A stretch of DNA of 23,806 nt from a virus, in IMG/VR virus record IMGVR_UViG_3300001533_002172, positions 1 through 23,806 of that record, one strand, 5' to 3'. Position 1 is the stretch's first letter. Every line of letters begins with the position of its first letter. A program made the position numbers and the translations under genes. Below the pieces are notes generated by a model, which was not told the DNA's origin, made no database searches, and worked only from the letters and a program-made list of their open reading frames with translations. Of the stretch, positions 3,129-18,915 are shown piece after piece.

Positions 3129-3312
3129 ATCCTTGCCGTGTTAATTCCTCTAATATAAACTCCTGTATATTATCTAATTCACATCCTGTGTATATGTCAT
3201 CTGTCAAACCCCTGAGTAAACTTTTTGTTTCCTCAACTTCGTCAAATTGAATCTTTATAATAAAAGGTTCAAACGGTTTAATCTTTTGGACTTTCTCAAT
3301 TTCAATTTTCAT
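3118..3312 (-). CDS. Small hypothetical protein downstream of recA
   Basis: The 64-aa product (begins MKIEIEKVQKIKPFEPF) is acidic and soluble and has no motif I recognise. Its ATG at 3312 overlaps the stop of the recA C-terminal part by ATGA, so it is likely co-translated with RecA. The C-terminal helix 'NIQEFILEELTRQGY' could be a small interaction surface. Function unknown. Confidence 0.5.
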   Translation of the reverse strand: MKIEIEKVQKIKPFEPFIIKIQFDEVEETKSLLRGLTDDIYTGCELDNIQEFILEELTRQGYVI

Positions 3313-4058
3313 CTCTTTTTCTTTTTGCGTTCATGTTCAAATTTGCTTTCAATTTCTTCCCACAAATCAATAACCTGGTTTTTCAATTCTTCTTCTAAAC
3401 TTTCTTCTTCCACAACTTGAATTGATTTTTCCATGCTATTGTTCAACACATTATCATTCACGGAATAAACTTTGCTTCCTGTGTAGTTTTTAACGAATTG
3501 CAAATTGGCACGAATGTCATCTATTCCATAGTCATAGTAAATAACAATTTCAGCGGTGCGATGAGGTTTCCAAATTGAACTTTTATCCACCTCAATCTCT
3601 CCTTCAATTCCTACAACCCTTTCTACCTTTTTCCCTTTAACCAAAACACTTTCTTTTATTTTTTTGAAACGTGTAAATCGAAGAATAAGACTGGAATAAA
3701 ATTCAATTGCTTTTCCACCTGGATTGACATCTTTTCGTGCCCATGCTCCTCCATCCATGTTCTCACGGATTTGATTGGTGCAAAACAATATAATGTTACC
3801 ATGGCTAATAATTTGTTTGCTTTTACGCAAATACATACTAAATTCTTTTGCTCGTCTGCCTCCCATTTTATCCCCTTCTTCATTTTCCATTTCCAGAGAA
3901 GTAGACAACGCCGCCAAACTGTCAACAAAGTAACCATATAGTTGATCCTTTTCATGTTTTGTTTCCATGAGTGTTTTAAATGCCTCAGGAATAATGTCTG
4001 GTTTAGAATAAACCATTTGCTCAACATCTAAATCAAACACTTCTGCAAATGGTTTATT
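3309..4058 (-). CDS. recA: RecA-like recombinase, C-terminal part (gene interrupted by adapter sequence)
   Basis: From the codon at 4058 the frame encodes about 249 residues with RecA core features after Walker A. These are a Walker B-like strand 'LYGYFVDSLAALS', the 'ILFCTNQIRENM' strand that leads into loop L2, and 'NPGGKAIEFYSSLILRF', matching the RecA 'GGNALKFYAS' region. The C-terminal tail is charged ('VVEEESLEEELKNQ...EHERKKKKR'). RecA forms filaments on ssDNA and drives strand exchange; the neighbouring SSB and mediator candidate fit. The open frame appears to extend to 4157, but residues upstream of 4058 translate adapter sequence ('STLFPYTTLFRS') and are not biological. The matching N-terminus is at 4112-4309 in a different frame, and the Walker A segment between them is missing from this assembly. 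Confidence 0.85.
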   Translation of the reverse strand, partial: NKPFAEVFDLDVEQMVYSKPDIIPEAFKTLMETKHEKDQLYGYFVDSLAALSTSLEMENEEGDKMGGRRAKEFSMYLRKSKQIISHGNIILFCTNQIRENMDGGAWARKDVNPGGKAIEFYSSLILRFTRFKKIKESVLVKGKKVERVVGIEGEIEVDKSSIWKPHRTAEIVIYYDYGIDDIRANLQFVKNYTGSKVYSVNDNVLNNSMEKSIQVVEEESLEEELKNQVIDLWEEIESKFEHERKKKKR

Positions 4059-4111
4059 AGATCGGAAGAGCGTCGTGTAGGGAAAGAGTGTAGATCTCGG
4101 TGGTCGCCGTA
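4059..4111. other. Illumina P5/TruSeq adapter embedded in the contig (artefact)
   Basis: The plus strand starts AGATCGGAAGAGCGTCGTGT at 4059 and continues to GGTGGTCGCCGTA at 4111. This is the reverse complement of the Illumina universal P5 adapter lacking its last five bases. Its two out-of-frame translations give the familiar contaminant peptides STLFPYTTLFRS and DLHSFPTRRSSDL. The adapter sits exactly where the RecA Walker A segment should be, so native sequence was lost when the contig was joined here. Confidence 0.98.
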
Positions 4112-4309
4112 CGCTACAACCATGATTCCTGCAGGAATTCCTCCACCTCGAACACACCCTCCACTAATTGCTAAATCAAGCAAAGTGGAACCTGTGCTGA
4201 GAACATTTTCAGTATCTCCTTCATATTCCTTTCTGCGAGTTGGTTTCATTGTAGCGTGTCGTTTTGCTTGACTACCAAGATCAACATTCTTCGTTCGTTC
4301 TCTTTTCAT
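4112..4309 (-). CDS. recA: RecA-like recombinase, N-terminal part (truncated by adapter sequence)
   Basis: From ATG at 4309 the frame gives 66 genuine residues. These include 'VLSTGSTLLDLAISGG' and 'GGGIPAGIMVVA', which match the RecA region leading into Walker A ('STGS..LD.ALG.GG.P.G.i.eiyGP'). Translation beyond 4112 runs into adapter. The expected 'GP..SGKT' and the next 30-40 residues are absent, and the C-terminal part resumes at 4058 in another frame. An upstream in-frame TTG at 4324 exists, but ATG is preferred. The start overlaps the preceding gene by 29 bases. In the real genome this and 3309-4058 should be one gene of perhaps 350 codons. Confidence 0.85.
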
Positions 4310-4658
4310 TTTCAATGATTTCAATTATTTCATCAATACAATCTTCCAATCCTTTGAACTTTAATTCAATTGCCAATTCACTTTTGAAACTATTGAAGTT
4401 CTTTCTCCTTCCCTCAGGATTTTTCCAAACTTCAAATGCCTTGTGTGCAACGTTTTTAATAATAACATCTCTTGGAAGAGTTGATTTTGTCCTGTCCATC
4501 CATTCTAACAACATAGATTTTAGAACGAAAGATTTTGTCATCCCAATAGAGAGGCAATAAAGGGAGAAATAAGAGCCCATCCTCTTCGGGATGTAAACTC
4601 CTAAGAATTGGGCTTCCTCTCTACGAACTCTTTTTACTTTTCTCCTTAATATTGTCAT
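4281..4658 (-). CDS. Hypothetical protein between ssb and recA, possible ribbon-helix-helix
   Basis: The 125-aa product has a basic N-terminus ('MTILRRKVKRVRREE'), then 'GVYIPKRMGSYFSLYCLSIGMTKSFVLKSMLLEWMD'-type order: a short strand followed by two helices, loosely like a ribbon-helix-helix DNA-binding unit. The C-terminus is helical and acidic ('ECIDEIIEIIENEK'-like). The ATG at 4658 overlaps the SSB stop by 4 bases, and the 3' end overlaps recA by 29. Position suggests a role with SSB or RecA. The fold guess is weak and the function unknown. Confidence 0.5.
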   Translation of the reverse strand: MTILRRKVKRVRREEAQFLGVYIPKRMGSYFSLYCLSIGMTKSFVLKSMLLEWMDRTKSTLPRDVIIKNVAHKAFEVWKNPEGRRKNFNSFKSELAIELKFKGLEDCIDEIIEIIENEKRTNEEC

Positions 4659-8254: not shown

Positions 8255-10826
8255 ATGGTTTCTTTTCTGCCCAGCTTTTATCAACTGGACTTAATTCAAA
8301 ATCAACTTCCAGTGGTGTAACAATCCAAGGCCAATGTTGACGAACATCATTACACATGATACATTCTACAATATTTACAACATTGGATAATTCGTTAGGG
8401 TTGACATCAAAAACTATTGAGTCATGTATTTGTCCAACAGGAACAGTATCCCAATGTTCTCTCATTTGAGCTTTTGTAATTTGAATAAAACTCCATAGCA
8501 AACAATGAAATGCAGATCCTTGTATTGGAGAGTTTATCACTTTACGTAAATCCATTACTCCTCTCAATGCAAACCCTGTTTTTGTTCGTATAAATCCGTG
8601 CGTTTGATAGTCCTTCCAGAGCCTCTCTTTCCACTCTTTATACATATAATATTTTCTCCAAAACTCCCTTTCAACTTGTTTAACATTTTCTGTGAAGTCA
8701 TCAAATGATCTTATTCCCTCATTACGGAAATGATCAGACAAATTAGCATCTCTAAATTTGATCCCTTCCCCTCTCCCCCAAAAAGATTTAGAAAGTTTTC
8801 CCCATTCACAAGCCAATCCTTCTGCACAATTTTTGTACCAACTGCCATATAATTCTGGAAAAAAGAAACCGTTTTTGGTTGCTGAACGCAAAAGTTTGTG
8901 GTGAGGATTAGATGCATCATACCCGGCAAACTTAAACACTTTCATACACCATTCTGCATGAACGTCTCCTTCCAACACATCTTTAATTAAATTTTCATCT
9001 TCACTATAACAAGCTGCAATCCTTCCTTCCAATTGTCCATAATCCACTTCCATTAATTGATGCCCTGGGCGTGGATAAATAACACCTCGAATAATTCCAC
9101 CTAACTCTTTGTTTCGAATGGGGATATTCTGAAAATTCGGAGAATCTGAACTGCTTCTGTACGTACGAGCAATATGCAAGTTAAAGAATGGGTGAATGTA
9201 TCCATTAACTGCCTCCCTCTTTAGAGATGATAAATAAGTATTCTTAACCTTTTTTAATTGTTTTAATTGAACTAACAGGTTTAGATCAGGAATATTAAGT
9301 TTTTCTAAAGCATCTTCCCCTGTTGATCCTTGCCGTCCTCCTGAGGTTGTTTTATGTGGTTTGAGTCGTTTTGTTTTGTAAAGAAAATCACTCAATTGTT
9401 GAGGGCTGTAAATGTTCAATGTTTTTTTACTACTCTTCTCCCAGTCTTTTGCAAAATCAGATTCTAAGAATTCCTTTTCTTGCGTTCTAATCTTCCTCTC
9501 AATTTTCCGTTCCTGTTTTTCTACTTCTTTAGAATCAATTCTAATTCCTTGTTGCTCTGCTCTGGTTAATGCAAGAACTCCTTCGTGTAACAAATCGTAC
9601 GCTTCTTTATCTTCTGGACTCATACTATTGATTTGCTTCATAGCTAAACGATATTGATGTGTGCTGTCTTTTGCACAATATTTCATCAGTTTCTGTCTAC
9701 CGGAGTTGGTTTGAATGAGTTCTTTTATTCTATTTAATGAGTTTCCATTTTTGCTTTCAACAGCACTTAACCATTTATCAACATCACTACTGTAATCAAT
9801 AATTCCAAAATTAACATAGGTTTGAAACTTTAATCCAGATATTCCTCCCCTATTATCCAACACGTGAGCAGCCAGCATACTATCCCAATACCAATTCTTA
9901 ACTGTTGCTCCTAAAATCTCTTTGCTCCATTCATGTTCAAATCGCATATTGTGTGCCATTTTTTTAATTCTGCGATTTGTTAATGTTCTAATATAATATT
10001 GTCTTTGAGAAGGATCTTCTGGCATCATGAAAACATAAACATCATTTTCGTTCGTTGCAACACTACAACAAATGATTTCATGCCCTTCTGCTTGCGGTTT
10101 CAATCCTGTTGTTTCGTAGTCTATTGTTTCTTCATTTTCAATTTCATTTAATTCACTCAAGTCTGAGATGTATTTAATATTTGGTTCCTTATAAACTGGA
10201 AATCTGCTATCTAATTTGGCAAATGCCCTTTCCAAATCATTTTTCCAAACCGTAATTAATTCGTCTGCATTTGACCTCATTATAAAACTGGGATGGAAAA
10301 CAGGACAGATCCATGCTTTAAAATCTTGATCAGGAATAGTCCAACCTCTCCATTTGTTGATCCCTCCAATTGCTCCCTTCATCCAACGATGTCCTAAAAT
10401 AGATTCAATAGCCGTGTTCCCTAATAAAACAATAATTTTAGGTTTCCTTTCAGCAATCACTTGTAAAACTCTCCGTCTGCAACATTCTATTTCATAACTT
10501 GTTGGTGTACGATTTGTTCCTTTTTTTGTCATTGGACGGCAACTAACGGCATTGATGTTCAAACAATCTTCAAACAAATCCACTCCCAACTCTTTATACA
10601 TTTTTTGCAATGTTCGCCCAGCTTTTCCTTGCCAAGGTTCACCTCGTGCATCTTCTAATTCACCAGGTGCTTCCCCAATATTTAAAATTCCTTTACGAAA
10701 CTCGCCGTAGGGTTTCATCATAGGTGAATTTACTTTGCGGAATAATCCACAAGAGTGACAAGAACGGGACTTTCCATCAGGTCTTAAAACAGATTGTGTT
10801 TCACGTTTTGTGAAGAATCCTGTCAT
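8244..10826 (-). CDS. UDG-like domain / 3'-5' exonuclease / family A DNA polymerase fusion
   Basis: The product is 860 aa. Residues 1-205 form a family-4-type uracil-DNA glycosylase-like domain: CxxC (C23, C26), GEAPGELED (51-59), GEPWQGKAG, C115/C116, C174 and HPSF (178-181). The cysteines could bind a 4Fe-4S cluster. Residues 230-400 are a DnaQ-like exonuclease with D236/E238 ('DYETTG'), N293-F296-E297 and D387. Residues 410-860 are the polymerase: motif A DYGQLEGR (D595, E600), motif B R647, K651 and F655 ending ELYG, motif C QIHDSIVFDV (H801, D802). Motif C has Ser where E. coli Pol I has Glu883. This is the phage replicative polymerase, working with the encoded clamp and clamp loader. 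UDG-PolA fusions are known from some phages. Whether the UDG part is active cannot be told. Confidence 0.9.
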   Translation of the reverse strand: MTGFFTKRETQSVLRPDGKSRSCHSCGLFRKVNSPMMKPYGEFRKGILNIGEAPGELEDARGEPWQGKAGRTLQKMYKELGVDLFEDCLNINAVSCRPMTKKGTNRTPTSYEIECCRRRVLQVIAERKPKIIVLLGNTAIESILGHRWMKGAIGGINKWRGWTIPDQDFKAWICPVFHPSFIMRSNADELITVWKNDLERAFAKLDSRFPVYKEPNIKYISDLSELNEIENEETIDYETTGLKPQAEGHEIICCSVATNENDVYVFMMPEDPSQRQYYIRTLTNRRIKKMAHNMRFEHEWSKEILGATVKNWYWDSMLAAHVLDNRGGISGLKFQTYVNFGIIDYSSDVDKWLSAVESKNGNSLNRIKELIQTNSGRQKLMKYCAKDSTHQYRLAMKQINSMSPEDKEAYDLLHEGVLALTRAEQQGIRIDSKEVEKQERKIERKIRTQEKEFLESDFAKDWEKSSKKTLNIYSPQQLSDFLYKTKRLKPHKTTSGGRQGSTGEDALEKLNIPDLNLLVQLKQLKKVKNTYLSSLKREAVNGYIHPFFNLHIARTYRSSSDSPNFQNIPIRNKELGGIIRGVIYPRPGHQLMEVDYGQLEGRIAACYSEDENLIKDVLEGDVHAEWCMKVFKFAGYDASNPHHKLLRSATKNGFFFPELYGSWYKNCAEGLACEWGKLSKSFWGRGEGIKFRDANLSDHFRNEGIRSFDDFTENVKQVEREFWRKYYMYKEWKERLWKDYQTHGFIRTKTGFALRGVMDLRKVINSPIQGSAFHCLLWSFIQITKAQMREHWDTVPVGQIHDSIVFDVNPNELSNVVNIVECIMCNDVRQHWPWIVTPLEVDFELSPVDKSWAEKKPYEH

Positions 10827-12732: not shown

Positions 12733-12899
12733 TTTTCTTCAATTCTTTCAATTAATTTCTGAAATCGTGAATTTCCTTTATGACTTTTTGTTTTTATAGA
12801 CTTAAAGGATAAAAGTACACCCCAATTTTGGCTATCCATAGAACGCATTCTTCTGCTGTTCTCTTGTTTTTTTCCGTCTCCTGCAAAATAAATAATCAT
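12729..12899 (-). CDS. 56-aa protein coupled to dpdA, possible detached transglycosylase segment
   Basis: From ATG at 12899 (ATGA overlap with the dpdA stop) the product is 56 aa. It contains 'IIYFAGDGKKQENSRRMRS' and 'NWGVLLSFKSIKTKS'. This resembles the first strand and helix that precede the 'F(I/L)DSGA' motif in phage TGT-like proteins ('...YFAG...LLSYYYL...'). The neighbouring DpdA begins almost directly at that motif and lacks this piece. The two products might therefore form one fold in trans, with the order of the parts swapped in the genome. The resemblance is from memory and weak; an independent small protein is the alternative. Confidence 0.5.
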   Translation of the reverse strand: MIIYFAGDGKKQENSRRMRSMDSQNWGVLLSFKSIKTKSHKGNSRFQKLIERIEEK

Positions 12900-13756
12900 A
12901 ACGCAAATAATTTTTTTCTTAATGAGAATGACCAAGGCCACTTTGGTAAACTATCACATAGGTCTACGAAATACATTGCATTCGCATCGCTTCTCATATC
13001 TGTATCGTTAGACACACCTTTTTCAATAATTTCTCCTTTTTCGTTCGTTTCTCCTAAAACAAATCCTTTTTCTTTTAGATACCTTTCCACAATGTTTTCC
13101 ATGATATGGTTTGTAGTTCGCTTTTTGGTTTTGCTTGGATTGTTTGAAACACGAATTGCATGAAAAGGAACATCATAACGCCACTGATCTCCTCGAAGAT
13201 GGGGAACAATTAATTGACCGTACATAGACAATCTTAACCAGCTTGTACTGTCAACACTCCACCAAGGATACCTTGTCATTAGTCTGTGACTTGTCATAGC
13301 AAAACCGTGAACCTTGACAGCAGGAGTTCTGTCTTTTGTGTCACAAATGATGTCAAACATTTCGTCCGCCCACTTTTTATATCCACTATACGATCCTTTT
13401 TGACCAACACCTCCTAATGCTATATATTTGTACCCGTCTTTTAGATACCTAATCAAATATTTCCTATCTGTGTCTGCGTGAACAACAGGGATAGGATGCA
13501 ATCCATGTTCTTCTTCAAGGTACTTTTGAGATTTATATGTTAATTCTGGATTGAATATAACATCTACATTGGCATAATTCACAATTTTGCCATTCATATC
13601 TTTTACAAATTTAGCAAATAAATCCAAGTATTTTTTGAACTCGTCTGTTTCATACCACAGGTAGCCGTTTTTACCTCCTACATTTTTAACGAATTCGTTG
13701 TATAAACCATGGGCGCCTGAGTCTATGAATACAGGATTGACAAAACTTCTTTTCAT
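12896..13756 (-). CDS. dpdA: DpdA-like DNA guanine transglycosylase (TGT superfamily)
   Basis: The 286-aa product has the landmarks of the TGT/DpdA barrel. These are 'FIDSGAHG' with D12 as probable general acid/base, 'VVHADTD' (91-97), the base-binding glycine motif 'YIALGGVGQKG' (111-121), 'KVHGFAMTS' (148-155) and 'WWSVDSTSW' (165-173), where D169 is the probable nucleophile. The tRNA-enzyme zinc site (three Cys and one His) is not visible, as expected for a DNA-acting relative. DpdA enzymes exchange guanine in DNA for a 7-deazaguanine, blocking host restriction. FolE, a QueD paralogue, QueE and QueD encoded just upstream supply the precursor. It starts two bases after the QueD paralogue and overlaps the 56-aa gene by ATGA. 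Alternative: a tRNA-specific TGT relative, less likely in this context. The N-terminus is short. Confidence 0.75.
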   Translation of the reverse strand: MKRSFVNPVFIDSGAHGLYNEFVKNVGGKNGYLWYETDEFKKYLDLFAKFVKDMNGKIVNYANVDVIFNPELTYKSQKYLEEEHGLHPIPVVHADTDRKYLIRYLKDGYKYIALGGVGQKGSYSGYKKWADEMFDIICDTKDRTPAVKVHGFAMTSHRLMTRYPWWSVDSTSWLRLSMYGQLIVPHLRGDQWRYDVPFHAIRVSNNPSKTKKRTTNHIMENIVERYLKEKGFVLGETNEKGEIIEKGVSNDTDMRSDANAMYFVDLCDSLPKWPWSFSLRKKLFAL

Positions 13757-13758
13757 AA

Positions 13759-14076
13759 TTATTCTTTTATTATTTCTGCTCCATTTTCATCATCTTCAAA
13801 AACACTGACATAAACTGCCTTAAATGTTTTCATCAGTGTTTCTGCTATGTCTTCACAAGAAGTGTTTTCAAGATAATGATCAAGATAATTTATTTTTATA
13901 AATAAATCAACTTGCCACTTCTTTTTTATAAATTCAATTTCTCTGTCATTATGAGAAACTTCCCATTTCATTGTTACATAGAAAACGTGGCGGTGTTCAT
14001 ACTTGAGATAATTTTTTGCCTTTTTCCAACTGTGAGTTGCTGAAAAACTGGTTTTAATCACAACATATTTTTTCAT
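13759..14076 (-). CDS. QueD/PTPS-fold paralogue lacking the catalytic cysteine
   Basis: The 105-aa product aligns by eye with the second QueD-like protein of this window (17393-17752). 'FSATHSW' (11-17) corresponds to 'FCAAHQL'. 'YEHRHVFYVTMKWEV' (26-40) corresponds to 'VHGHNYKVKVEL', keeping the zinc ligands H15, H28 and H30. 'LDHYLENTSCEDIAETL' corresponds to 'LDHQFLNN...TAENIAKW', keeping the Asp-His pair. The position of the QueD catalytic cysteine (four residues before the second His) is Leu24. It probably binds zinc and a pterin- or deazapurine-like ligand but should not perform the QueD reaction. It lies between the glycosyltransferase (ATGA overlap) and dpdA (2-base gap). A role in altering 7-carboxy-7-deazaguanine, for example decarboxylation, is inference. 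Confidence 0.65.
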   Translation of the reverse strand: MKKYVVIKTSFSATHSWKKAKNYLKYEHRHVFYVTMKWEVSHNDREIEFIKKKWQVDLFIKINYLDHYLENTSCEDIAETLMKTFKAVYVSVFEDDENGAEIIKE

Positions 14077-15104
14077 AACATTTCATTAATCATATTTCCT
14101 ATCGCTTGTTTTCCCTTTTCAAGTAATACCTTTCTATTATAATGAACTAATTGTGGAATGTTTGGATATTGATCTATGTAATGTAAAAATTTAGAATATA
14201 TAGAATCTATATCACTTTTCTTATCGCCTTCATATAAAAATAAGTTATCATATAATTCACGATAACTTAATCTATTTGGACATAAAGGTATATTATATTG
14301 AAATAATGCCTCTTGCATTCCAATCCCCCAATTCTCATGTAAGGCAAACGATATTGCAATATAAGATCGATTTAAGAGGTTATAATATTCTTCTTTGGTT
14401 CGATGGATATCTTGAGTTCTAATAAATTGCCAACCAGTATTTTCTCCTCTTTCTTCTTTAAATCTTTTTTCAAGCTCTAAAAATAAATTGGGTTGTTTTT
14501 CAGAGTTTAATCTATGAGGAAATACAACAATTTTTTCCTTTTTTACCGGTTGGCATTTTGGAGGATAAATAGGAAATCCTGTGACTTTAATCTTTTCAGG
14601 GACTGCATCTCGATACTTTATCACGATCCGTTTGTGAAATTCTGTGGCAACGAAAACTTTATCTACTAATTTAAAAATAGAATTCTCAAACCCTTCTCCC
14701 CATTTCGCCATTCCTTTCAATGTTATGTAGTCTTGAGGCTCATAACTACCAGAATGTAAACAACCCATAATTCTTAGGTTCTTCCATTCCATTCCATCTC
14801 TAATATAACTAATCGCTTGTATTCCAGGAAACCATATATCGTGAAAGAATAAAACAAGTGGATAAGAATCATCGTATGTTCTAAGGTAAACCAATATTTT
14901 CTGCAATTGAGCCAGCTTGTATTCATTTGTGTCAATTAAATCAAGAAATCCTCCATGTTCAATCTCTCCACTACAATTATCACCGTAAATGGTGTGAACA
15001 AATAATTCTTTGTGATATCGGAATTGGGTGAGAAACCAAGTATCCCATTGCTTTGTGTATCTAATGTCTAAAGGTTCAATTGGAACATTTAATATTGTTG
15101 TCAT
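14073..15104 (-). CDS. GT-B fold glycosyltransferase inside the deazaguanine cluster
   Basis: The 343-aa product looks like a GT4-like glycosyltransferase. The N-terminal domain has '[16 protein letters not shown]' (81-96) and 'MGCLHSGSY' (113-121). The C-terminal donor-binding domain has '[16 protein letters not shown]' (193-208, with R198 and K203 expected near the nucleotide-sugar phosphates) and '[16 protein letters not shown]' (253-268), an E-x7-E motif (E257, E265). Such enzymes transfer sugar from a nucleotide sugar. It overlaps folE upstream and the QueD paralogue downstream by 4 bases each, so it is co-translated with the base-modification enzymes. This makes modified DNA base a likely acceptor. 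Glycosylation of a protein or surface polymer is the alternative, but no such genes are nearby. No membrane segment is seen. Confidence 0.7.
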
Positions 15105-15664
15105 TTGATTAAATGTAAAAATTCTTCTCTCACAGCTTGATTTTCACGGAAAACACCTTTGATGCTGGATGTTACCATAATAGAATTTTGTTTTGCCACA
15201 CCTCTCATCCTCATGCAGGTGTGTGTTGCTTCAATAATACAAGCGGCACCGTGCGGATTAAGGTATTGCATCAATGCATCTGTGACTTGCTCTCCGATTC
15301 GTTCTTGTATTTGCAATCTGCGAGCATACATATCAACAAGTCTTGCCAATTTACTTATACCTATAACTTTTTCATTAGGAATGTATGCAACATGAGCTTT
15401 ACCAAAAAATGGCAACATATGATGTTCACACATGCTGTAAAGCTCAATGTCTTTCAATAAAACCATTTGATCATATCCATCAGCTTCAAAAATAGTTAAT
15501 AAGTCTGCTGGGTTTTTATCGTATCCAGAATATAATTCTTGCCAACTTTTAAAAATTCTGTAAGGAGTTTTTTTCAATCCTTCTCTTTCAGGATCTTCTC
15601 CTATATATTCAATCATTTTTCTTAAATGATGTTTAATATTTGCTTCGTTTGATGTATCTGTCAT
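15101..15664 (-). CDS. folE: GTP cyclohydrolase I
   Basis: The 187-aa product is a clear type I GTP cyclohydrolase. It contains '[16 protein letters not shown]' (29-44), '[19 protein letters not shown]' (78-96) with zinc ligands C79 and H82, '[21 protein letters not shown]' (103-123) and '[12 protein letters not shown]' (145-156) with the third ligand C150. It converts GTP to dihydroneopterin triphosphate, the first step of both folate and 7-deazaguanine synthesis. Linkage to queD, queE and dpdA points to the deazaguanine route. Length equals the compact bacterial form. No Shine-Dalgarno is visible; a 12-bp hairpin (15687-15721) lies just upstream. Its stop overlaps the glycosyltransferase ATG by 4 bases. 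Confidence 0.95.
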
Positions 15665-15686
15665 AATGAATTTTTGTTTACAAAAG

Positions 15687-15721
15687 TGAGAAAGGAGAAA
15701 AATAATTAATCTCCTTTCTCA
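15687..15721 (-). terminator. Hairpin between the winged-helix gene and folE
   Basis: A perfect 12-bp inverted repeat pairs 15687-15698 (TGAGAAAGGAGA) with 15710-15721 around an 11-nt A/T loop. Reading leftward, it follows the stop of the 15733-16347 gene and is followed by CTTTTG, a weak U-tract. It could terminate that transcript or protect and regulate the folE message. A smaller dyad, TTTTGT-TT-ACAAAA at 15672-15685, lies between it and folE. Confidence 0.55.
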
Positions 15722-15732
15722 GCAGGAAAAAT

Positions 15733-16347
15733 TTAACCTTCAAATTTAAGAAATAAAGTTTTTGCCTCTTTGTCTTCAACAATGTGAAGATCCAGGCCGC
15801 GGTTCTTTTCCAAATGGTAAAAGTGAGACCGAACACGGGCTTTGCTTAGTCCTGTGTCTTTCATAACATCATCAATCGAGATTTTTTTGCCTTTGTTTGC
15901 AAGTAAACTCTCATCGATGTTTCCAGCTTGTGATCCAACTCTGTGTCCCAATTCCGTTTTTTCAAATTCCTTTTTCGGTTTCTTTTCTTTCTTCTCAGGT
16001 TTCTCTTTCTTTTCCTTTTTCTCCGGTTTAGCCTTTTCTTCTTTCACAGGCTTTCCTGATCTCTTTCTCGACTTTTCTTCCGGCTCAGGTTCATCATCCT
16101 GCTCTTCATCCTCTTTGTCATCCTCTTCTGGCTCTTCCGGTTCCTCTTTTAGTTGATCAAAAATCTCTTGTGTTGAATCAGTGAATTTGTCTCCAGGTTC
16201 AACCAGCTCTTCAACCGTCTCAAGCAATTCACGTGAAAACTCTTCAACTGAAAGATCTTCATAATCTATTGGAGGGTCAACTCCAATAACCTTGTCCAAT
16301 TCTTTGTAGGCAGCAACGAGTTGCCGCTTTGTCAATTTTTTTGCCAT
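15733..16347 (-). CDS. Charged-linker protein with C-terminal winged helix
   Basis: The 204-aa product has three parts. Residues 1-66 are helical ('LTKRQLVAAYKELDKVIGVDPP...'). About 67-135 is a low-complexity linker, first acidic (EEPEEPEEDDKEDEEQ) and then Lys/Pro/Glu repeats (KPEKKEKKEKPEKKEKKPKK). Residues 150-204 look like a winged helix: 'ISIDDVMKDTGLSKARVRSHFYHLEKNRGLDLHIVED'. A DNA-binding or regulatory role is likely. It is monocistronic-looking: a 109-base A/T-rich gap lies upstream and a strong hairpin downstream. It sits in the middle of the deazaguanine genes but need not belong to that pathway. No Shine-Dalgarno precedes the ATG. Confidence 0.6.
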   Translation of the reverse strand: MAKKLTKRQLVAAYKELDKVIGVDPPIDYEDLSVEEFSRELLETVEELVEPGDKFTDSTQEIFDQLKEEPEEPEEDDKEDEEQDDEPEPEEKSRKRSGKPVKEEKAKPEKKEKKEKPEKKEKKPKKEFEKTELGHRVGSQAGNIDESLLANKGKKISIDDVMKDTGLSKARVRSHFYHLEKNRGLDLHIVEDKEAKTLFLKFEG

Positions 16348-16456
16348 AGCATTGAAATTTTTAAAATTAAGTAAATCAAAATATTAAATTAATGTATGAA
16401 TTTACAAATAATAATTGATATTTGCAAATTTTTAAAGAATTATTTTAAAAAAAGTT

Positions 16457-17221
16457 TTAAACACCAACATTTTTATTCCACAAAACGATATGCTCTCTTG
16501 TGCAATACCTCACATTATGTTTCACAGCCATTTCAACAACCACATTTCTGTTTTCTTCCAACTCTTTTTGTGTTGCCCCAAGTGGCATCAAAATAATTTG
16601 ATTCTTTTTAATCAAACTTGGTTTAAGAAAAAGATTTTCAATCTCTCCCCATTCCTCTTCAAGCCAAACAACAAACTTAAACCAGGAATTTTCTAATTGA
16701 GCTGTCTTATAAATAGCATTTTCACGATAACGAATTTTTGGATTAACTCCAGAACTTGACAACTTTGGGGAATTGTTCCATTGACTAACAAATTGAATTA
16801 ATTTAGATTCTGGAACGATTGTGCATTCATTTTCAATTTCAACAAAAGGCAGAAATCCAAATCTGTTTACAAACCCCCATAGAAACTCTGCAATCGCTGA
16901 TTGTTGTAACAAAGGAGCGCCTCCTGTTATCACTAAATGTTGTCCGTCCCGTAGTTTGTCAACTAACAAACTTTCATTCATCATTTGATATAATTCCATG
17001 AACGTGTAAGGTTGATGGAAACGCCAAACTTCTGTTGTGTCGCAATACACACAGTTGACGTGACAACCGCCAAGACGAAGAAACGCTGCAGGACAACCTG
17101 TTGAAACTCCTTCTCCCTGAATTGTGTCAAAATAAAATTCTGATACCTTTAAATACTTTGAAGTATTTAGCTTTGGTAATTCTTTTCTTTCTGTAAAAGC
17201 CTTAATCAATTGTGTGCTCAT
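16457..17221 (-). CDS. queE: 7-carboxy-7-deazaguanine synthase (radical SAM)
   Basis: From ATG at 17221 (ATGA overlap with the upstream stop; a GTG three codons earlier is less likely) the product is 254 aa. 'FDTIQGEGVSTGCPAAFLRLGGC' (31-53) is the QueE signature around the substrate site, followed by the radical-SAM CX3CX2C cluster, C53-C57-C60 ('CHVNCVYCDT'). QueE converts 6-carboxytetrahydropterin to 7-carboxy-7-deazaguanine. The next motif reads TGGAP (99-103), where QueE and most radical-SAM enzymes have TGGEP; the Glu-to-Ala change is at the SAM-binding GGE motif. Otherwise the protein appears full length and intact. It lies in a tight cluster with queD and a 63-aa protein. Confidence 0.9.
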   Translation of the reverse strand: MSTQLIKAFTERKELPKLNTSKYLKVSEFYFDTIQGEGVSTGCPAAFLRLGGCHVNCVYCDTTEVWRFHQPYTFMELYQMMNESLLVDKLRDGQHLVITGGAPLLQQSAIAEFLWGFVNRFGFLPFVEIENECTIVPESKLIQFVSQWNNSPKLSSSGVNPKIRYRENAIYKTAQLENSWFKFVVWLEEEWGEIENLFLKPSLIKKNQIILMPLGATQKELEENRNVVVEMAVKHNVRYCTREHIVLWNKNVGV

Positions 17222-17409
17222 TTTATCCACTCCTCCTTTCCTATTTCTAATGCTTCCAATATAGATAGCTTTGGGTTGTTTTCCAATGCTTGAAAAGCGG
17301 AAGCAATTACTTCACATTTTAAGCCAAACTCTTGAGCTTCATGTAATACTTTGGCTATCTCAGGATCCAAGTCATTTAAACCTAAATTTGGACTATTTGT
17401 CTTCTTCAT
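17218..17409 (-). CDS. Small conserved protein between queD and queE
   Basis: The 63-aa product is helical with the C-terminal pattern 'ALENNPKLSILEALEIGKEEWIK'. I recognise this style ('ALK.M.ENP..SIEEAL..G..EW') from small proteins common in Bacteroidota phages. It overlaps queD by 17 bases and queE by ATGA, so it is translated together with them. That position does not prove a role in deazaguanine synthesis, because related proteins occur in other contexts. Function unknown. Confidence 0.6.
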   Translation of the reverse strand: MKKTNSPNLGLNDLDPEIAKVLHEAQEFGLKCEVIASAFQALENNPKLSILEALEIGKEEWIK

Positions 17410-17752
17410 ATCTTGCCCAGGTTTTATCAGTTTCAGAAACGTCTACTGCAGACAACAATGGATATCTTTGTTTCCATTTATAGAAAATCCATTTTGCAAT
17501 ATTTTCTGCGGTTGGATTACCGGGAATAACATTATTCAAAAATTGATGATCCAACGTAATATCAATCCAGTTTCCAATTCCTTTTAGTTCTCCATAATCC
17601 TGAACCATTCCTGCTGAATCAAGATCATTGCTTTTCAGTTCCACTTTCACTTTATAGTTGTGCCCATGAACACGACTGCAAGGGTGCCCTTCTCCCAATT
17701 CATTTAATTGGTGAGCGGCACAAAACGAAAATTCTTTTGTAATCTTAAACAT
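17393..17752 (-). CDS. queD: 6-carboxytetrahydropterin synthase
   Basis: From ATG at 17752, preceded by AAGGAAA, the product is 119 aa; a longer frame from 17779 lacks support. It has the complete QueD/PTPS site: 'FCAAHQL' with zinc ligand H14, 'PCSRVHGHNYKVKVEL' (24-39) with catalytic C25 and ligands H29 and H31, 'LDHQFLN' with the catalytic Asp-His pair, 'TAENIAKWI' and 'VSETDKTWARY' near the C-terminus. QueD turns dihydroneopterin triphosphate, the FolE product, into 6-carboxytetrahydropterin for QueE. Length matches bacterial QueD (about 120). The second copy at 13759-14076 is divergent and Cys-less, so this one is presumably the biosynthetic enzyme. Confidence 0.93.
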   Translation of the reverse strand: MFKITKEFSFCAAHQLNELGEGHPCSRVHGHNYKVKVELKSNDLDSAGMVQDYGELKGIGNWIDITLDHQFLNNVIPGNPTAENIAKWIFYKWKQRYPLLSAVDVSETDKTWARYEEDK

Positions 17753-18036: not shown

Positions 18037-18915
18037 TTATACCTCTTCAAATAATCTTTTCTTCAAATTTAGTGTTCCTTCAAAAACCATTCTAATAGCA
18101 TCTTTATATTTTACACCATTGTTTTCAATATTCATCATTATATTAAATCGTTTTGGTTCTCTTTGTTTTAACCTATAAAAACGACTTTGATCAAATTGAA
18201 TACCAAAACCACAATAAGCACATCCAGTCGTTTTCTCCCCTTTATTGTAAATATCACAATAAGGTATATTATTTTCCCTTATAAATCTCCATATATCCTG
18301 CTTCGTCCAAATAGATAAAGGTGTTACTTGTTTTTTATTTAGATTAATGCAACCTGTTTTTAAATAAGTTAATTTTCGCAATCTTGATTCTGTTGCAAGA
18401 GTCCCTACCAACATTCCATTTTTATTTATTTTATTAAATGGATATTTCTTCAAAAAGTAACAACATTTATGACAAATATCAAACTCAGCATCTAATAAAT
18501 ATTTCCATTTATCAGGAAGTTGAGCCATTCTAAGATTTCTTAATTTATCACTTTTGGTATGTTTTATTTCCCAAATAAATTGGCTAATTTCTTTACTAAT
18601 CAAAGGGAATCCATATTTTTGAACAACATCTACAAACGTGATTTTTGGATGAATTATTTTTACATTTTCTATAGACTTTACAAATTTGATAATCTCTGAA
18701 AATTCATTTGTTGTATTAACAAAACACCCCTCCTTATTTTTATCAATTATTCTTGTTAAATATAATAAAACGGTACTATCCAACCCTCCAGAAAAACTAA
18801 TAACGGAATTAGGATATTGAGCAATGAAAGCATCTATAACATATAGACTATGATCTATTTTTTGATTCAACGTCCAATTTAATCTTTTCTTTAACTCTTT
18901 TTCACTAATTTCCAT
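18037..18915 (-). CDS. PP-loop ATPase of the PAPS reductase/sulfurtransferase type
   Basis: The 292-aa product has a PP-loop 'SGGLDST' at 42-48 (preceded by 'NSVISF') and a central 'CHKCC' cluster. A C-terminal 'TPLSIWTKQDIWRFI' and 'GEKTTGCAYCGFG' match the PAPS-reductase-like family (W-T-x-x-D-I-W and GC-x-x-C-G). PP-loop enzymes adenylate a substrate with release of pyrophosphate. Many phages carry members of this family, with unknown substrate. It stands upstream of queD, and the window lacks a normal QueC, itself a PP-loop enzyme acting on 7-carboxy-7-deazaguanine. The QueC C-terminal four-cysteine site is not present in its usual form, so a QueC-like role is only a hypothesis; sulfur chemistry is the alternative. 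Its ATG is 8 bases from the helicase stop. Confidence 0.75.
   Translation of the reverse strand: MEISEKELKKRLNWTLNQKIDHSLYVIDAFIAQYPNSVISFSGGLDSTVLLYLTRIIDKNKEGCFVNTTNEFSEIIKFVKSIENVKIIHPKITFVDVVQKYGFPLISKEISQFIWEIKHTKSDKLRNLRMAQLPDKWKYLLDAEFDICHKCCYFLKKYPFNKINKNGMLVGTLATESRLRKLTYLKTGCINLNKKQVTPLSIWTKQDIWRFIRENNIPYCDIYNKGEKTTGCAYCGFGIQFDQSRFYRLKQREPKRFNIMMNIENNGVKYKDAIRMVFEGTLNLKKRLFEEV

Follow-up and report, generated by a model that had tools for sequence, protein, structure and literature searches.

A phage 7-deazaguanine DNA-modification gene cluster with a QueD-like paralogue and a glycosyltransferase in place of QueC

We analyzed a stretch of 23,806 bases of viral DNA (the window), which constitutes the complete IMG/VR record IMGVR_UViG_3300001533_002172 and is a linear fragment of a virus genome. 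The window carries a gene cluster for 7-deazaguanine DNA modification that includes the DNA guanine transglycosylase DpdA and the enzymes FolE, QueD and QueE. This cluster is a variant of the phage 7-deazaguanine system in which a QueD-like T-fold paralogue (hereafter, the paralogue) and a GT4-type glycosyltransferase (the transferase) are found in place of QueC, the usual enzyme acting on 7-carboxy-7-deazaguanine (CDG). On balance, we favor a pathway that modifies DNA with a 7-deazaguanine without the use of QueC and that probably ends in a glycosylated form of this base. The finding names a candidate substitute for QueC at the missing step, provides a simple gene signature (the paralogue plus the GT4 family) and singles out cultured phages as likely carriers of the predicted modification.

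The paralogue and QueC exclude each other

The first-pass annotation of the window had reported no recognizable QueC, and we likewise found no protein above the PF06508 cut-off in the 23.8-kb record. Because the window is a fragment, this absence alone proves little, and it is relatives that settle the matter. QueC was above the cut-off in none of the ten named phages that encode the paralogue (full records), none of 20 full IMG/VR records with the paralogue and none of 20 full records selected by a transferase of the window's type, a set that includes the closest relative of the window (L181, 55.8 kb); the total over these longer related records is 0 of 50. The control phages CAjan, nt-1, Bhz54 and ZHS were all recovered with QueC by this search, and none of them has the paralogue. 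QueC is truly absent from this type of pathway.

Two independent scans of IMG/VR yielded 80 paralogue loci and 80 phage QueC loci, each set being selected for the one gene and containing related sequences. QueC is present in 0/80 paralogue loci and the paralogue in 0/80 QueC loci, such that the two never occur together in the 160 sampled loci. Mapping the two states onto a tree of DpdA1 proteins requires six changes, at least five of which are forced by well-supported branches; the swap between QueC and the paralogue has occurred at least five times on this tree. The paralogue is also found with a DpdA2-type transglycosylase (profile p10773, which is matched by the nt-1 DpdA2, YP_008125322 (PMC6884629)) and with a third, DpdA2-related transglycosylase group (hhalign, 96.6%). 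More than 200 viral loci, and a few cellular ones, have the combination of paralogue and transferase; its carriers include phages Paride, PA5oct, ACP17, X1, BUCT-ZZ01 and Phosso.

A PP-loop protein adjoining QueD was considered as a candidate QueC and rejected. It scores as a phosphoadenosine phosphosulfate (PAPS) reductase (PF01507, 82 bits), and its match to QueC, at 20.7 bits against the PF06508 cut-off of 22, covers the PP-loop stretch only. The protein has neither motif of the QueC signature YPDC/VPxRN (PMC13329287), although 75 of the 80 phage QueC sequences contain the first of these. Nor is it conserved with the module: homologs were found in none of the 80 paralogue loci and none of 152 transferase loci, and L181 has none. 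The PP-loop protein is a bystander outside the module.

The paralogue retains the zinc site but not the catalytic residues of QueD

The paralogue belongs to phrog_17812, a family of unknown function (E = 2e-20), and matches the Pfam PTPS family with just 12 bits, as a distant PTPS/QueD relative. A structure model built from a 40-sequence alignment (pLDDT 95) matches Pyrococcus PTPS (Z = 14.1) and Escherichia coli QueD (4ntk; Z = 13.8). The Acinetobacter protein termed QueD2 (7v0f) fits this model less well (Z = 10.2) and is a different paralogue. In alignments, the family keeps the zinc ligands H15, H28 and H30 and, at the base-binding positions, Glu75 and Glu94, but the catalytic Cys of QueD is replaced by an invariant Leu24 and the Asp-His dyad is not conserved. 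The invariant residues R45, E48, S73 and C74 are new to the paralogue family, and an SCE motif is present in 236/236 homologs.

We do not classify the paralogue as QueD, because the catalytic Cys and the Asp-His dyad are not conserved and a canonical QueD is encoded by a separate gene. The canonical enzyme co-occurs in nine of the ten named paralogue phages, so the paralogue is an additional gene rather than a stand-in for QueD, a role for which it was also considered. Faecalibacterium phage Roos (L009, 12031–13219) has the paralogue and DpdA only, with no QueD or QueE across its whole record, and may take CDG from its host. In phage MA9V-3 (L010, 11452–12333), the paralogue is fused to an endonuclease VII/HNH-like domain, and in phage Bakedbeans (L011, 11125–12276) to another domain.

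The glycosyltransferase is linked to the paralogue

The transferase model (pLDDT 91.6) adopts a GT-B fold and matches retaining GT4 enzymes (MshA, Z = 26.6; BshA, Z = 25.9). Alignments A7 and A8 place R198 and K203 at the donor-phosphate Arg/Lys positions and E257 and E265 as the EX7E pair, such that the open reading frame (ORF) combines the GT-B fold, the EX7E motif and the Arg/Lys residues of a retaining GT4 enzyme. The deep glycosyltransferase alignments, like those of QueE, were too diverse for pattern searches.

The transferase is present in 64/80 paralogue loci and 0/80 QueC loci. When only loci that also contain FolE and QueE are counted, it is found in 41/47 paralogue loci versus 0/65 QueC loci (nominal Fisher p = 1.5e-24, uncorrected for relatedness). 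Conversely, the paralogue is present in 145 of 152 transferase loci (70/77 of the window type and 75/75 of the jumbo type), and QueC in none of either type. Five of the seven exceptions are loci that begin within the transferase gene, so a neighboring paralogue would be invisible. Every phage found through the transferase also has the paralogue. This dependence is one-sided, with the transferase almost never occurring without the paralogue and the paralogue sometimes occurring without the transferase. The most economical interpretation is that the paralogue makes the substrate of the transferase. The first-pass annotation had treated the enzymes interleaved with the cluster as separate findings; that view holds for the PP-loop protein but not for the transferase and the paralogue, which are core parts of the module.

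DpdA and the enzymes leading to CDG

The proposed DpdA-like transglycosylase has both expected aspartates, D12 and D169, as well as H150. These three residues are conserved in 94–100% of 85 phage DpdA1 homologs and are kept in both gene-set types; beyond a variable insertion near residues 21–23, we found no DpdA residues that separate the paralogue type from the QueC type. The protein matches phrog_887 (E = 8e-39), is 31% identical to the DpdA of phage CAjan and has no Pfam match to the tRNA-guanine transglycosylase (TGT) family at E ≤ 1. In a tree built from 86 DpdA1 sequences, the window's protein falls in a ten-member paralogue-type clade (support 100/95) within the phage DpdA1 radiation and groups with DpdA1 of the CAjan/Bhz54 type. 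The subfamily comparison proposed at first pass, by profile and by tree, thus assigns the sequence to phage DpdA1 and not to the tRNA-acting TGT enzymes.

FolE, QueD and QueE, named at first pass, are borne out by family profiles and motifs. FolE matches PF01227 (252 bits, E = 4e-75) and scores above the TIGR00063 cut-off, and QueD matches TIGR03367 (94.6 bits; cut-off, 89.25) and PF01242 (E = 5e-35) and has the CxxxHGH, LDH, TAEN and SET motifs. QueE is more divergent: it matches the phage QueE family phrog_2076 over its length (E = 2e-47) but falls below the NCBIfam equivalog cut-offs (TIGR04322, 60 bits; cut-off, 200). Of its expected key residues, the CxxxCxxC motif is intact, whereas the alignment shows GGAP where most QueE proteins have GGEP; the QueE proteins of phage phiST and of L181 (7762–8538) have GGSP at this position.

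A proposed QueC-independent pathway and its alternatives

From the functions of their families, FolE, QueD and QueE would convert GTP to CDG. The first-pass annotation described a DpdA-centered 7-deazaguanine cluster that appears to stop at CDG. The cluster itself stands, with DpdA of the DpdA1 type and QueC missing, but its end at CDG is probably an incomplete account, as the paralogue excludes QueC and the transferase is linked to it. We propose that CDG is an intermediate, which the paralogue, in the place of QueC, would convert, probably by decarboxylation. CDG would bind in the QueD-type pocket, where the zinc ion and R45 may hold its carboxylate and S73/C74 or E48 may supply the proton that yields 7-deazaguanine. 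A lyase- or decarboxylase-type reaction fits better than QueD chemistry, because the zinc site and the base-recognition glutamates are kept, an invariant Arg is new and the Cys and the Asp-His dyad are lost. DpdA1, like other members of its family, would then exchange guanine in phage DNA for the resulting base, and the strict gene linkage suggests that the GT4 transferase adds a sugar to the DNA base or to the free base. Because the paralogue and QueC are mutually exclusive and the transferase is near-obligately associated with the paralogue, the base is more likely to be derived from CDG independently of QueC and then glycosylated. Whether hundreds of phages, including the cultured Pseudomonas phages Paride and PA5oct, carry an undescribed glycosylated 7-deazaguanine made without preQ0 is, in our judgment, evenly balanced.

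Several observations weigh against this proposal. Sugar attachment is the weakest step of the mechanism: decarboxylation of CDG leaves C7 with no hydroxyl or carboxyl group for O-glycosylation, so the sugar would have to be placed on carbon or nitrogen, or the paralogue would have to catalyze another reaction. One possibility is a C-linked sugar at C7, a position that would be free and nucleophilic after decarboxylation; if there is no decarboxylation, a sugar ester on CDG or a sugar on a new hydroxyl could form. Glycosylation is not universal, because 16/80 paralogue loci have no transferase. Phages phiST (which also has no QueC), RHph_I1_18, Roos and MA9V-3 likewise have the paralogue and no transferase. 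Raw locus counts overstate independence, because the sampled loci are interrelated. Finally, many relatives encode an additional radical SAM protein that the window lacks: rSAM17, of ~450 amino acids, is present in 30/77 window-type transferase loci (including L017, L018, L180 and L182–L186) and the shorter rSAM31 in 22/77. Both may further modify the base or the sugar.

The loci without a transferase would be expected if the modification were plain deoxy-7-deazaguanine (dDG), with the paralogue decarboxylating CDG, DpdA inserting the product and the transferase acting elsewhere, for example on a surface glycan or another base. We regard this as unlikely, though the most credible of the alternatives, because the link between transferase and paralogue holds in three transglycosylase groups, none of the 80 QueC loci has the transferase and its gene lies within or beside the FolE–paralogue–DpdA gene run. 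Somewhat less likely still is the proposal of the first-pass annotation that CDG itself is the inserted base (dCDG), in which case the transferase may attach the sugar to the CDG carboxylate, with the paralogue doing no more than bind or deliver CDG. FolE, QueD and QueE do end at CDG with no QueC to follow, the invariant R45 could hold a carboxylate and CDG has already been suggested as a DNA base for phage Bipper, which lacks QueC (Hutinet et al. 2019; PMC6884629) and in which we found no paralogue either. However, every locus of this type that we sampled has a conserved zinc-site enzyme where QueC would be, and a passive role for it is unlikely.

Sources of QueC function outside the module are harder to reconcile with the data. 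A QueC encoded elsewhere in the phage or by the host, which would give DNA with preQ0 or 7-amido-7-deazaguanine (ADG), is suggested by the fragmentary window and by the frequent presence of QueC in hosts, but it is improbable given its absence from all 50 longer related records and the strict separation of paralogue and QueC across the 160 loci. We consider it more improbable again that the PP-loop protein replaces QueC. It carries an SGGxDS motif and sits next to QueD, yet its PAPS reductase score, the missing YPDC motif and its absence from L181 and from every paralogue locus sampled argue otherwise.

Gene layout and neighboring enzymes

All genes of the cluster lie on the minus strand, at the coordinates assigned at first pass (Table 1). 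The order of transcription is PP-loop protein, a 60-amino-acid ORF, QueD, a 63-amino-acid ORF, QueE, an acidic protein with a helix-turn-helix (HTH)-like C terminus, FolE, transferase, paralogue and DpdA, followed downstream by a sliding clamp and DNA polymerase I. FolE and the transferase, and the transferase and the paralogue, overlap by 4 bases, which is typical of translational coupling. L181 has the same order (QueD, QueE, acidic protein, FolE, transferase, paralogue, DpdA, a 217-amino-acid protein and the clamp). Its acidic protein (8596–9426) is in the same position as that of the window, is similar to it and shares with it the stretch TE(F/L)GH(K/R)VGSQA; the acidic protein is probably non-catalytic. 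Neither the window's DpdA nor its DNA polymerase, searched singly against viral contigs, found relatives.

Table 1. Genes of the cluster and the adjoining PP-loop gene in the window
Feature	Coordinates	Strand	Evidence
DpdA1-type DNA guanine transglycosylase, 286 aa	12896..13756	minus	phrog_887; D12/H150/D169
QueD-like T-fold paralogue, 105 aa	13759..14076	minus	phrog_17812; alignments; structure model
Retaining GT4-type glycosyltransferase, 343 aa	14073..15104	minus	alignments; model; R198, K203, E257-x7-E265
FolE, GTP cyclohydrolase I	15101..15664	minus	PF01227; TIGR00063
Acidic/lysine-rich protein, HTH-like C terminus	15733..16347	minus	no Pfam match; counterpart in L181
QueE-like radical SAM CDG synthase	16457..17230	minus	phrog_2076; CxxxCxxC; GGAP variant
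QueD, 6-carboxytetrahydropterin synthase, ATG start	17393..17752	minus	TIGR03367; PF01242; canonical motifs
PP-loop/PAPS-reductase-like protein, adjoins QueD	18037..18915	minus	PF01507

In related loci, additional enzymes are encoded between the paralogue and the transferase. These include radical SAM proteins (L017, L018 and L031), a cytidylyltransferase fused to a mannose-phosphate isomerase-type cupin (L049) and a second glycosyltransferase with dehydrogenases (L030). The sugar-handling genes among them are in favor of the proposed glycosylation, as is the Paenibacillus cluster described below. No additional module-conserved gene was accepted: several families are more frequent around the paralogue, but these seem to be lineage-specific neighbors or are unnamed.

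The paralogue also occurs in cellular gene clusters. A chromosomal cluster of Paenibacillus polymyxa ISL-58 (L337), probably for a natural product, combines QueE, QueD, FolE and the paralogue with two glycosyltransferases, a nucleotidyltransferase, a GDP-mannose dehydratase-type enzyme, a carbamoyltransferase, a SPASM radical SAM protein and a pyridoxal phosphate (PLP) decarboxylase; a canonical QueC is encoded elsewhere in this genome, outside the cluster. In Streptomyces sp. SID13031 (L355), the paralogue lies beside QueD, FolE, a P450 and a SABATH-type carboxyl methyltransferase, and the product is possibly a deazapurine or pterin metabolite. An archaeal cluster combines the paralogue with a methyltransferase. 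From these clusters, one of them with sugar enzymes, it follows that the paralogue probably serves small-molecule pathways too, and its presence in Paenibacillus suggests a route shared with natural-product biosynthesis.

Elsewhere in the window, an Illumina adapter (ACGGCGACCACCGAGATCTACACTCTTTCCCTACACGACGCTCTTCCGATCT) lies at 4055–4112 on the minus strand inside a RecA-like gene, which it splits into ORFs 4028–4324 and 3309–4157. This is an assembly artifact and not a biological insertion.

Comparison with known systems

The window shares FolE, QueD, QueE, DpdA1 and a neighboring clamp and DNA polymerase with the dPreQ0, dG+ and dADG clusters of phages 9g, CAjan, Rosebush and MED16. Whereas those clusters have QueC, the window has the paralogue and the GT4 transferase instead. 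To our knowledge, the 7-deazaguanine modifications described in phages so far bear small groups at C7. If confirmed, glycosylated 7-deazaguanine would be the guanine counterpart of glucosyl-hydroxymethylcytosine, and its bulk would shield the DNA from restriction and CRISPR nucleases. Among the papers searched, we found none on glycosylated 7-deazaguanine in DNA, and the passages found in the Paride paper do not mention modification of that phage's own genome.

Like the pathway proposed here, the dDG and dCDG modifications of phages involve a 7-deazaguanine made independently of QueC, and phage phiST has the paralogue and no QueC. Cui et al. (2023) reportedly described both bases in phages and predicted a CDG decarboxylase, DpdL. 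The paralogue family is a natural candidate for DpdL, a name that none of the database models searched carries. We know of no glycosyltransferase described with dDG or dCDG phages.

Mycobacterium phage Bipper resembles the window in having DpdA, FolE, QueD and QueE with no QueC (PMC6884629) but differs in having no paralogue and, in the 49 kb searched, no transferase. At the level of the individual enzyme, the paralogue and the QueD/PTPS family, exemplified by E. coli QueD (4ntk), share the T-fold, the zinc histidines and the base-binding glutamates; the paralogue is set apart by the loss of the catalytic Cys and Asp-His dyad and by the gain of R45, E48 and the SCE motif. A precedent for a glycosyltransferase that acts on a 7-deazapurine base is found in huimycin biosynthesis (PMC7439116), which, like the window, combines such an enzyme with FolE, QueD and QueE homologs. 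The huimycin route differs in that it uses a QueC homolog and its product is a secreted metabolite rather than DNA.

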